Assembly (NCBI GenBank): GCA_030065655.1
Contig: JASJDT010000009.1
Location: forward strand, 1 to 33,220
Length of the DNA: 33,220 nucleotides
Source: Desulfocapsaceae bacterium
GTDB lineage: Bacteria > Desulfobacterota > Desulfobulbia > Desulfobulbales > Desulfocapsaceae
Direction: 5' to 3'
Shown: in pieces, positions 4,058 to 15,823 of the stretch
Layout: each line of letters begins with the position of its first letter
Position numbering within the stretch: the stretch's first letter is position 1
Program-made: the position numbers and the translations under genes
Notes under the pieces: model-generated
Seen by the model: only the letters and a program-made list of their open reading frames with translations
Told to the model about the DNA's origin: nothing
The model's database searches: none

Positions 4058-4501
4058 CTAATCGTGGGAAGCAAAATAGAGTTTGGCAAAAGCGTCAATG
4101 TGCTCCTTGAGCTTCGCGGCGTTTTGAAGGTCGGTGGTCTGTTTGCATTTCATGGCATACACAAGCATCTGATGAAGATGCGTAAGCATTTCCTCGTAGT
4201 TTTTGTCATCGGCTTTAATGCGTTGGGTGAGAAAATATTGGCTTACTATTTCCTGGAATTCATTGGCATGTAGTTCTTTGTTCATAATCCAGCGAATATG
4301 CTGGTTGCTGTTCTTCCCATCAGCGGGATTGTTGATCTTGTCCATGGATTTTTCAATGGTGGCTACATGTTCTCTGAGCAGGCTGATACGCATCTCATCA
4401 TCATAGATACCGCAGGGAATTTCACAATGTGAAAATGCAGGAACAGCAATCAGTAGTGTAGCACCCAGCATAAGAATAACTTGCAGCAATATTCTGGACA
4501 T
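4058..4501 (-). CDS. sodN: Nickel superoxide dismutase, exported form
   Basis: This 147-aa precursor belongs to the Ni-SOD family, which disproportionates superoxide. The nickel hook HCEIPCGIYD matches the family signature HCxxPCGxYD, giving His1, Cys2 and Cys6 as ligands. Ahead of it lies a 24-residue Sec-type signal (MSRILLQVILMLGATLLIAVPAFS) ending in an acceptable signal-peptidase site, so cleavage would make the hook histidine the N-terminal residue. The rest (about 123 aa, helical) fits the normal mature length of about 117 aa. The ORF track starts at 4708, but AAGGAGGT lies 6 nt before the ATG at 4501. No SodX-type maturation protease is nearby. The protein should act in the periplasm. 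Confidence 0.88.
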   Translation of the reverse strand: MSRILLQVILMLGATLLIAVPAFSHCEIPCGIYDDEMRISLLREHVATIEKSMDKINNPADGKNSNQHIRWIMNKELHANEFQEIVSQYFLTQRIKADDKNYEEMLTHLHQMLVYAMKCKQTTDLQNAAKLKEHIDAFAKLYFASHD

Positions 4502-4806
4502 GGTTTTACCTCCTTGTCGGTTGATTCTGGTAAGAGAAATGGTTGTGACGGAAAATGAGCAGCAAATACATAGTCCAAACCTATTCATCTCATGGAGTAC
4601 ACAGTATGACTCCCTTTCGGAAAAACAAGAAAGGAATAGAGTCCTCTCTCTTTGATGATCTAACACCTGGATTCGGAATGATCTTCTTGATTTCGCCGGC
4701 GGTAGCATCTATGCTAAGCAAATAGTTACCGATACAGACACCCTGAAATGCGATGTAAAAAGAATAACCCATAATTCAATCTGCTAACCGATACTTCAGA
4801 AAATAC
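4502..4806. other. Divergent intergenic region, sodN / sensor kinase
   Basis: It contains the sodN ribosome-binding site (AAGGAGGT on the minus strand at 4508-4515). The promoters of two divergent genes should lie here. No clear -35/-10 pair or repeat could be assigned. ORFs listed on the minus strand here (4590-4772, 4726-5097) have no support. Confidence 0.4.
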
Positions 4807-7842: not shown

Positions 7843-9096
7843 ATGAGTGAACTCATATTAATCAATATTTCCGGTAAAGACCGACGTGGGCTGAATTCCA
7901 GATTCAGTTCCCTGATGGCACAATATGATGTCAACATCCTTGATATCGGTCAATCGGTTATCCATGAACATATATCTCTTGGTATCTTGGTTGAAATTCC
8001 CGAGGCCGGTGATTTTCCGGCTCTCTATAAGGACATACTCTACGAAGGGCATAATCTTGGTTTAGCGGTGGAGATAAAAGCTGTAGCTCATGACCGTTAT
8101 GAGTCATGGGTGAAAGCTCAGGGTCAGGAAAGGCGCAAAATAACACTTCTCGGCAAAAAGATTACCGCCCAGCAGATTTCCGGTGTTACCTCGGTGATTT
8201 CAGAAAATGGTTTGAACATCGACTCAATATCCAGGTTGACCGGTCGCATTTCCCTGGCCAATCCCCAGCTTAATCCACGAGCCAGCATTCAATTGACAGC
8301 AAGCGGAAAGCCGAAAAATATCAAAGAAATGCGTAGAAGTTTCATGGAGATTTCTAGGCAGACCGGCATTGATATCTCATTTCATGTCGATAGTATCTAT
8401 ACCCGCAACAGAAAGTTGGTTGTTTTTGATATGGACTCGACTCTCATCCAGGTGGAGGTAATCGATGAATTGGCCAAGCTGGCTGGAGTTGGCGCCGAGG
8501 TTGAAGCTATTACTACGGCAGCCATGCGTGGTGAACTCGATTTCAAGGAAAGCTTTCGTAGGCGGGTTGCTCTGCTCAAAGGGCTGGACGAGCACAAACT
8601 CTCCCTTATAACCGACTCGCTACCTCTGGCTGAGGGCACCGAGATTGTGACAAAAACACTGAAGGGACTGGGCTATAAGCTGGGTATCCTATCCGGCGGG
8701 TTCACCTTCGTGGGTGAGTATCTCAAAAGGAAACTGGGCTTTGATTACCTCTATGCCAATACTCTTGATATAGCCGATGGGAAAGTTACCGGAGAGGTAG
8801 TCGGAGACATCATTGACGGCGAGAAAAAGGCTGAATTGCTGGCGATGATCGCGGAAAAGGAAAACATTCATCTTGACCAGACCATTGCCGTTGGTGATGG
8901 CGCCAATGATCTGCCCATGATCAGCCTGGCTGGGCTCGGTGTTGCTTTTCACGCCAAACCGGTAGTCAGGGAAAAAGCGGGCAATACCATCACCAGTGTT
9001 GGCCTGGACGGTCTACTCTACCTGATCGGCATTCATGATCGGGAAATACGTCAGGAAGAAGAAACGCTCCAGGTTGATCTGGACCAGGAGCGTTAG
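7843..9096 (+). CDS. serB: Phosphoserine phosphatase with two N-terminal ACT domains
   Basis: It catalyses the last step of serine synthesis, phosphoserine to serine plus phosphate. Residues 1 to about 90 and about 98-180 are ACT-like regulatory domains (the start LILINISGKDRRGLNSRF is typical). The HAD phosphatase follows: motif I VVFDMDSTLI with nucleophile Asp196 and Asp198, motif II LSGGFT, and motif IV VGDGANDLPM. The length (417 aa) matches ACT-ACT-SerB proteins of Desulfobacterota and mycobacteria. AAAGGA lies 2 nt before the ATG at 7843. The ACT domains suggest feedback control by an amino acid, probably serine. Its 3' end faces the small riboswitch-controlled ORF on the other strand. 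Confidence 0.93.
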   Translation: MSELILINISGKDRRGLNSRFSSLMAQYDVNILDIGQSVIHEHISLGILVEIPEAGDFPALYKDILYEGHNLGLAVEIKAVAHDRYESWVKAQGQERRKITLLGKKITAQQISGVTSVISENGLNIDSISRLTGRISLANPQLNPRASIQLTASGKPKNIKEMRRSFMEISRQTGIDISFHVDSIYTRNRKLVVFDMDSTLIQVEVIDELAKLAGVGAEVEAITTAAMRGELDFKESFRRRVALLKGLDEHKLSLITDSLPLAEGTEIVTKTLKGLGYKLGILSGGFTFVGEYLKRKLGFDYLYANTLDIADGKVTGEVVGDIIDGEKKAELLAMIAEKENIHLDQTIAVGDGANDLPMISLAGLGVAFHAKPVVREKAGNTITSVGLDGLLYLIGIHDREIRQEEETLQVDLDQER

Positions 9097-9108: not shown

Positions 9109-9228
9109 CTATTTCTTGGTTGGTGTTGATCGCAGGATCAGGCAAAGGCGTAGAATGGCCTGATAGGTATCCCAATCTTTGGTAGCAAGAAGAGCTTGTT
9201 TAGTGAAGGCTATTTCATTTTTCAGCAT
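9109..9228 (-). CDS. 39-aa small protein under a cobalamin riboswitch
   Basis: This ORF was missed by the ORF track because of its length. It reads MLKNEIAFTKQALLATKDW...ILRLCLILRSTPTKK. An excellent Shine-Dalgarno (AAAGGAGG) lies 5 nt before the ATG. The peptide looks helical and cationic at its C-terminus, with a single Cys. It has no membrane segment and no signal peptide. Upstream, in order, lie a sigma-70 promoter, a cobalamin riboswitch and an intrinsic terminator. No other minus-strand gene follows within 4.6 kb, so this is the only visible coding product of that transcript. I do not recognise the family. It could instead be a leader peptide, or the transcript could act as RNA antisense to the serB 3' end. 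Confidence 0.6.
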   Translation of the reverse strand: MLKNEIAFTKQALLATKDWDTYQAILRLCLILRSTPTKK

Positions 9229-9265
9229 TGGTTCCTCCTTTGGTCCTGATTGAAGGTTCGCAAGC

Positions 9266-9301
9266 TAAAAAGCCCCGAACCAAAAAGGTTGATCCGGGGG
9301 C
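9266..9301 (-). terminator. Intrinsic terminator of the cobalamin riboswitch
   Basis: Read on the minus strand, CCCCG and AACC pair with GGTT and CGGGG around a TTTTT loop, followed by CTTTTTAG. It lies between the aptamer and the Shine-Dalgarno of the 39-aa ORF, so it is the likely expression platform: ligand bound, transcription stops. A further GACCTT/AAGGTC hairpin separates it from the aptamer. Confidence 0.8.
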
Positions 9302-9361
9302 CCTGATTTCACCACAGATACAAGATTTCGACCTTTTTCCGCGAAGGTCAGTCAAATGAGT

Positions 9362-9513
9362 TTGAGGCAGGTCTTCTGACTTCCGGATCATCCCTTACCT
9401 GCGCCTTCCCGGCCATTCGGCCAGTGGCAAATGCAGGTTCAGTTCCCGGTCACAGCGGCGGGCCCGTTTCCGAATTACACGGAATTCCCTATTATGTCGT
9501 TTCGACACCTCTA
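9362..9513 (-). promoter_or_regulatory. Cobalamin (adenosylcobalamin-type) riboswitch
   Basis: Read on the minus strand, the sequence contains all hallmark blocks in order: GAGGTG, AATAGGGAA, GGGCCCGCCGCTGTGACCGG, TTTGCCACTGG, CCGGGAAGG, and the B12 box AAGTCAGAAGACCTGCC. These match the cobalamin aptamer consensus (GCCACTG, GGGAAGG, AGYCAGRAGACCTGCC). The transcript predicted from the upstream promoter would begin at about 9513, exactly where the aptamer begins. In other bacteria this element controls cobalamin synthesis, uptake or B12-independent isozymes. Here the only gene downstream is the 39-aa ORF. Confidence 0.93.
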
Positions 9514-9520
9514 AATTCCG

Positions 9521-9549
9521 ACCATACCATAGCTTAAATTTGCGGTCAA
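9521..9549 (-). promoter_or_regulatory. Sigma-70-type promoter of the cobalamin riboswitch transcript
   Basis: On the minus strand, TTGACC (9544-9549), a 17-nt spacer and TATGGT (9521-9526) form a near-consensus promoter. The predicted transcription start at about 9513 coincides with the 5' end of the aptamer. Confidence 0.75.
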
Positions 9550-15138: not shown

Positions 15139-15248
15139 AACCAGCTATAAATCAAGCTTGAAAAGGGCAATCCCTTCAAAAGGAGGGTTACGCAAAACCA
15201 CCGGCCTACGTCGCATTACAACGATAGGGCAGCGGAGTTACCTGGCTG
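15139..15248 (+). promoter_or_regulatory. Cyclic-di-GMP class I (GEMM-I) riboswitch aptamer
   Basis: The conserved GEMM-I blocks occur in order: AGGGCAA, the P2 stem CCCTTC/GGAGGG, ACGCAAAACCACCGGCCTA, the P3 stem closed by TAGG, and GCAGCGGAGTTACCTGG, with CCAG/CTGG closing P1. The middle G of AGGGCAA corresponds to the G20 that favours cyclic-di-GMP over cyclic-GMP-AMP. An oddity is that the P2 loop is AAAA, not the usual GNRA tetraloop. Downstream lie an anti-Shine-Dalgarno element and two small ORFs. In relatives this element controls motility, pili, cytochromes and exported proteins. Confidence 0.92.
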
Positions 15249-15314: not shown

Positions 15315-15437
15315 ATGATTAAAACCGAATGTTCAACTCAGAGACCAGCACGGGCGATGTGTTTTAAACTCTCTCGCGCCTCGTTAGTACTTGAGTATTC
15401 TGAACAGATAGGTCCGATTGTCTGGCAGAACTACTGA
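15315..15437 (+). CDS. 40-aa small ORF, first gene of the c-di-GMP riboswitch unit
   Basis: This ORF was not in the ORF track. It reads MIKTECSTQRPARAM...IGPIVWQNY. GGAG lies 8 nt before the ATG and is the predicted target of the riboswitch anti-SD. It has two Cys, a basic N-terminal half, no membrane segment and no signal peptide. I recognise no family. It might be a regulatory leader ORF coupled to the next one, which starts 24 nt later, or a functional peptide. Confidence 0.5.
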   Translation: MIKTECSTQRPARAMCFKLSRASLVLEYSEQIGPIVWQNY

Positions 15438-15461: not shown

Positions 15462-15617
15462 ATGGCCGTCAATTTCTATAGACTTATTTTGTTATTATTA
15501 TTTCTTTCAGTTGGTTATCTGTTGTCAGCGGAAGGAGAGATCAATCAGAATGTTTTGTTGACTGGGGGAAATGACAATGTAGTTCACGACCAGCTCATAA
15601 ACTCTGATATAGACTGA
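15462..15617 (+). CDS. 51-aa small exported peptide, c-di-GMP riboswitch unit
   Basis: This ORF was not in the ORF track. GAGAGG precedes the ATG at a suitable distance. The N-terminus (MAVNFYRLILLLLFLSVGYLLSA) is a clear signal peptide or single membrane helix. Cleavage after LLSA would release an acidic peptide of about 28 residues (EGEINQNVLLTGGNDNVVHDQL...) rich in Asn and Asp. The unit ends in a strong terminator about 150 nt later with no other convincing gene, so this peptide is probably the main product of the riboswitch transcript. The family is unknown. A role at the cell surface or as an extracellular signal under c-di-GMP control is inference. Confidence 0.6.
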   Translation: MAVNFYRLILLLLFLSVGYLLSAEGEINQNVLLTGGNDNVVHDQLINSDID

Positions 15618-15764: not shown

Positions 15765-15809
15765 CCGCCCAACCCGTCATTTATCGAGGGTTGGGCGGTT
15801 ATTTTTTTT
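15765..15809 (+). terminator. Strong rho-independent terminator of the c-di-GMP riboswitch unit
   Basis: CCGCCCAACCC and GGGTTGGGCGG form a perfect 11-bp stem around a 12-nt loop, followed by TTATTTTTTTT. It closes the plus-strand small-ORF transcript just before the convergent 56-aa gene. Confidence 0.93.
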
Positions 15810-15823
15810 AGCTCTTGTCCATA

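Follow-up and report, generated by a model that had tools for sequence, protein, structure and literature searches.

What does a cobalamin riboswitch regulate when the only gene behind it is an open reading frame (ORF) of 39 codons? Cobalamin riboswitches are thought to govern synthesis, transport or B12-free isoenzymes. The question is raised by the window, the whole 33,220-nt stretch of DNA analysed here, which comes from a draft Desulfocapsaceae assembly (84.5% complete, 286 contigs). A sequence-only reading of this DNA had proposed that the switch, with its own promoter and terminator, has a small protein as its sole product, or else drives an RNA running antisense into serB, and that it would be a new kind of target.

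A self-contained riboswitch unit in the window

We found that positions 9549-9053 of the minus strand form a self-contained unit that runs from a promoter through an RF00174 aptamer, terminator 1 and a Shine-Dalgarno sequence to the 39-codon ORF and terminator 2, and that is flanked by convergent serB and a glcD-type gene (Table 1). The promoter, aptamer and first terminator thus lie in the order that the sequence-only reading gave, the ORF does have a strong Shine-Dalgarno sequence, and the Rfam covariance check that had been suggested returned the aptamer at full length. The nearest minus-strand gene with a family assignment is 4.4 kb off (positions 4058-4708, encoding a protein that resembles Ni-superoxide dismutase but is extended at the N-terminus; Sod_Ni spans residues 92-213, and the score is under the NCBIfam sodN cut-off). 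One small point of that reading had to be amended: the stretch downstream of the ORF is not open, as it is closed by a terminator of its own, overlooked before, which stops the transcript inside the last ~44 nt of serB.

Table 1. Features of the unit and its convergent neighbour, in window positions.
Feature	Position	Strand	Basis or score
Sigma-70-like promoter, TTGACC-17-TATGGT, extended TG before -10	9521..9549	(-)	predicted, consensus match alone
Cobalamin riboswitch aptamer, RF00174	9349..9527	(-)	covariance model, 124.7 bits (gathering score 31.5), E 3.7e-31, model 1-189 complete
P13/L13-like hairpin after aptamer, loop CGCGGAAA	9329..9350	(-)	-7.1 kcal/mol
Terminator 1, expression platform, GGGCCCCCGGATCAACCTTTTTGGTTCGGGGCTTTTTA	9263..9303	(-)	-17.4 kcal/mol
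Shine-Dalgarno, AAGGAGG	9234..9240	(-)	
39-codon small-protein gene MLKNEIAFTKQALLATKDWDTYQAILRLCLILRSTPTKK, E..K...DWD.FQ...R family	9109..9228	(-)	
Terminator 2, AACGCTCC...GGAGCGTT + TTCTTCTTCC	9053..9094	(-)	-16.1 kcal/mol, z -4.2
serB, ACT-ACT-HAD phosphoserine phosphatase, outside the unit	7843..9096	(+)	

A TTGACC/G-17-TATnnT or TAGnnT site at an equal spacing to the B12 box (166-168 nt) is found in three other genomes (G032, G142 and G174). A further small amendment is that the -10 box lies directly against the aptamer model at its 5' end, so that the outermost P1 pairs may fall outside the RNA. In the hairpin that follows the aptamer, the CGCGG of the loop could form a kissing interaction with CCGC of L5, a pairing read by eye; the L13 loop varies, so that a strict GCGG-loop expression matched in only 27 of 111 loci, and the kissing loop is therefore proposed as a possibility for the window alone. 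The expression platform itself is general, with an intrinsic terminator 5' of the small ORF in 108 of 111 loci.

Conservation of the small ORF in Desulfobulbales

The sequence-only reading had called for a search for similar peptides behind cobalamin riboswitches, and such peptides were indeed found in relatives. Among 58 relatives, homologues of the 39-residue peptide were recovered down to ~30% identity, nearly all of them shortly 3' of a same-strand cobalamin riboswitch. A profile (A1) built on 32 homologues has M1, D20 and Q23 invariant and E5, K10, D18, W19 and R27 almost invariant, giving the core E-x4-K-x7-DWDx(F/Y)Q-x3-R in proteins of 30-64 residues. This profile matched 116 of the 258 Desulfobulbales genomes searched (~45%), almost always in single copy; elsewhere in the phylum it found next to nothing, with four weak matches. 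Named carriers include Desulfofustis glycolicus (Desulfofustis is placed in Desulfocapsaceae, order Desulfobulbales), Desulfopila, Desulforhopalus and Desulfoprunum benzoelyticum. The start codon is conserved across homologues, as is the Shine-Dalgarno sequence (GGAG, GGAGG or AGGAGG before almost every one).

The window protein and 31 relatives had no family in Pfam, the window protein had none in NCBIfam and no match to PF06180 (CbiK), leaving it without a chelatase domain, and profile searches of PDB and Pfam returned no relative, only short chance matches. One of these, actin-like protein 6A (E 0.07), was rejected as a distant relative since the match is a short DWD-FQ coincidence. The family is likewise undescribed in the open-access literature searched. 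The small ORF was not found in G002, a genome of the window's own genus, which is uninformative because a serB query of that assembly was also empty. At 3001-3084 of L164, whose contig is labelled as Patescibacteria, lies a homologous peptide ORF, and RF00174 had no match in the 6 kb locus; this is either a case of misbinning or a riboswitch-free copy.

The link to the riboswitch was examined at 116 extracted loci, a few weak profile matches having been left out. At 111 of them a B12 box (≤3 mismatches) lies 87-462 nt upstream of the ORF. The remaining five are L099, which is spurious and stems from an earlier single-peptide search, L083, located at the edge of a contig, and three loci that have RF00174 matches by Rfam (L175, L230 and L240). 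When loci were sampled, 19 of 20 scored above the Rfam gathering threshold and the twentieth (L174) fell narrowly under it (30.4 vs 31.5 bits). The small ORF is always the first ORF behind the riboswitch.

Selection acts on the encoded amino acids

Within genera of the window's family, in which nearly all copies stand alone, pS was 0.68 and pN 0.16 in frame, a ratio of 0.24; shifting the frame gave ratios of 1.36 and 1.39. Ratios were 0.26 for copies preceding a TonB receptor gene, 0.17 for copies fused to CbiK and 0.13 in another stand-alone clade (f12 g50), all of them approximate as pS is close to saturation. Between the window and G001, 15.5 of 20 synonymous sites differ vs 6.5 of 70 nonsynonymous ones. 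Frame, start codon and Shine-Dalgarno sequence are thus conserved together with in-frame purifying selection, as in a protein-coding gene, and the substitution pattern indicates that selection preserves the amino-acid sequence rather than the RNA, equally where no B12 gene follows. Altogether, conservation, the B12 box and in-frame purifying evolution indicate that the ORF under the B12 switch is a real and previously undescribed small-protein family, and the claim of a self-contained cobalamin switch, promoter and terminator included, with a small protein as its sole product was upheld, the ORF being conserved, under coding selection and usually alone.

Genomic neighbours of the small ORF

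About 71 of 115 loci have no close downstream partner and were classed as stand-alone; neighbour classes in this crude count were assigned mechanically, and a small number of its "convergent" neighbours are mechanical ORFs. The stand-alone form is that of the window's family, where the neighbours are genus-specific: serB in one genus only (G000, G001), a feoB-like gene in g6, and others elsewhere. Most genes that neighbour a stand-alone copy have no relation to B12. At 22 loci, spread over families f3, f4, f5, f8 and f12, a TonB-dependent receptor gene follows the ORF directly, mostly through ATGA or TGATG stop/start overlaps; the one receptor scanned (at L089) hits TIGR01779, a model of B12 receptors, with a score under the cut-off. 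In six genomes from two families (five f6 genomes and G003), one continuous frame runs from the small ORF through a signal-peptide-like segment into CbiK. PF06180 was confirmed for the fused relative L079 and the other CbiK fusions were recognised by sequence; mere adjacency behind one riboswitch may have caused the fusion.

Other neighbours recur more locally. The gene of the B12-dependent ribonucleotide reductase, nrdJ, lies ~400-900 nt downstream of the unit on the same strand at L073, L080, L182 and L206 (g13) and at L065 (G032). Upstream of the unit, hemC is found in G016, G028 and G029 (L071, L076, L078, L081 and others; genera g14 and g15), and immediately downstream there is often, in g14, a gene for a Gfo/Idh/MocA oxidoreductase. 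In G049 (L240) and G249 (L230), both of f14, the small ORF sits behind its own riboswitch. These two loci hold three cobalamin riboswitches in ~2.2 kb, one of them directly before the small ORF; they are separate switches within one B12 cluster.

The distribution of the family was compared with that of CbiD, which is present in 77 of 112 genomes with the small ORF vs 92 of 146 without it (Fisher p 0.36): 35 genomes have the ORF but no CbiD match, and 92 have a CbiD match but not the ORF. The small ORF is therefore untied to de novo B12 synthesis, and dependence on that pathway was rejected for lack of a CbiD association.

Other riboswitches in the same genomes and in the window

Further B12 riboswitches were sampled in G000, G001, G006, G014, G016, G022 and G023. 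None has the small-ORF motif; most stand before known B12 genes and some before unrelated ORFs. Known targets there are a TonB receptor, CbiK, a ThiC-family protein and an operon with BtuF-like, CbiA and CbiD proteins. The unit thus counts as one more member of the regulon. The ThiC-family protein (G000:C247, L092:11109-12449) matches ThiC at 570 bits and a BzaB-like model at 495 bits, below cut-off, and possibly serves B12 lower-ligand synthesis.

The window has a second riboswitch with small-ORF-only output. A c-di-GMP-I riboswitch (RF01051, 58.2 bits) at 15156-15245 of the plus strand is followed only by ORFs of 40 residues (15315-15437) and 51 residues (15462-15617, signal-peptide-like), a stretch closed by a terminator-like hairpin near 15766-15810.

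Alternative readings of the unit

A chance ORF behind an orphan riboswitch could have explained the locus, since 39 codons are not significant by themselves and no Pfam or NCBIfam match exists. This idea, to which we give virtually no credit, is refuted by the comparative data, as more than 100 genomes conserve the ORF with in-frame constraint and with its Shine-Dalgarno sequence and start. The transcript might instead act as RNA, antisense or small, against serB or other genes, with an incidental ORF. Antisense-acting cobalamin riboswitches have been described, Listeria AspocR against pocR among them, with many computational candidates besides (PMC9943018); the window unit resembles AspocR in that a cobalamin riboswitch transcript is aimed at a convergent gene, here serB. 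It differs in having a conserved ORF, its own terminator before the convergent gene and no conserved antisense target: within genera, synonymous sites have almost reached saturation but amino acids are kept, terminator 2 leaves only the last ~44 nt of serB to overlap, and the convergent gene varies by genus (serB, feoB, others). That amino acids stay constrained even in copies with no B12 gene behind them speaks against a noncoding or antisense role, which we consider very improbable, and the proposal of an RNA running into serB was not supported.

The stop/start overlap with the TonB receptor gene at most of about 20 operonic loci, and the invariable first place after the riboswitch, would suit a cis-acting leader that couples ribosomes to downstream btuB or cbiK, the stand-alone copies being relics left after the gene moved. 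Yet relics are expected to decay, and pN/pS in stand-alone copies (0.24 in the window's family, 0.13 in f12 g50) is as low as that of operonic ones (0.26) or lower, which argues against a pure leader-peptide role for those copies; a coupling ORF would not require the conserved DWDxFQ either, and most loci have no close downstream partner. We regard a leader as unlikely overall, while giving it more weight than the other rivals. Action on B12-dependent enzymes such as class II NrdJ, sparing or adjusting them at cofactor scarcity instead of serving uptake or cobalt insertion, would fit the placement of the unit in g13 and G032, a few hundred nt before nrdJ, and the independence of the ORF from CbiD. 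With nrdJ adjacent in only about five genomes, and the direct links (operon and fusion) pointing to the TonB receptor gene and CbiK, this seems improbable to us.

A model for the small protein

We consider it probable that the unit is a complete, stand-alone, B12-repressed small-protein gene, our best guess for the product being a cytosolic subunit, accessory or regulatory, that would serve corrinoid/cobalt acquisition. That assignment draws on the CbiK fusion in two families and the overlaps with TonB receptor genes. The architecture, terminators, conservation, coding selection, association and fusion are read in the DNA itself, whereas the OFF-type response, translation, the partner and the activity are inferences. 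In the RF00174 family, adenosylcobalamin binding favours termination. The bound aptamer would thus permit terminator 1 to form and transcription would halt; at low B12 the polymerase would read through, the strong Shine-Dalgarno sequence would be used and the small protein produced, transcription ending at terminator 2. Made only under B12 shortage, the protein would serve corrinoid/cobalt acquisition across the envelope, working with the signal-peptide-bearing chelatase CbiK, with TonB-linked B12 import or with both. An AF2 model has helices at residues 3-15 and 19-34, predicting a two-helix hairpin with modest confidence (pLDDT 72, pTM 0.39). More tentatively, and as a possibility that we hold short of probable, the dedicated riboswitch output may be a stand-alone, trans-acting small regulatory protein, a ~40-residue helical hairpin that would bind and adjust a corrinoid/cobalt component across the order under B12 shortage.

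MntS-type small proteins are members of metal regulons, for example the E. coli MntR miniregulon. The window protein is alike in being a ~40-residue protein controlled by the homeostasis system that it would serve, a likeness by description, and differs in its riboswitch control vs a repressor there (the MntR miniregulon is cited in PMC9943018). Known delta-proteobacterial B12 elements target cbi, cbiK, btu and nrdDG genes, with a proposed cobalt transporter, cbtX, and the part of that survey available mentions no small-protein target (PMC545781). The window unit has three things in common with RF00174 switches on btuB, cbi/cob, cbiK, cbtX and nrdDG (PMC545781): the family of the aptamer, the B12 box and a platform built on an intrinsic terminator; the difference is that its only product is an undescribed small protein outside the described B12 gene families. 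Signal-peptide-bearing CbiK (PF06180) is fused in frame behind the small protein, under the same riboswitch, in f6 and G003, whereas elsewhere the two are separate. The expectation of a new kind of target therefore holds for the protein itself, which is undescribed, and less so for its role, which receptor operons and CbiK fusions tie to cobalamin/cobalt acquisition. The sequence-only reading had also allowed that the riboswitch of relatives might precede a normal B12 gene and the ORF not be conserved: the former is partly true in other families and the latter is false.

Small hypothetical genes behind antisense-acting riboswitches have been regarded as probable annotation errors (PMC9943018), a view to which this family is a counter-example in kind; behind "orphan" or "antisense-acting" riboswitches that face convergent genes, short ORFs may have been skipped by gene callers. 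An unnamed small protein controlled by a cobalamin riboswitch, found in CbiD-positive and CbiD-negative Desulfobulbales alike, adds a candidate component to the B12/cobalt acquisition of environmentally important sulfate reducers and suggests a new player in B12 handling by sulfate-reducing Desulfobulbales.
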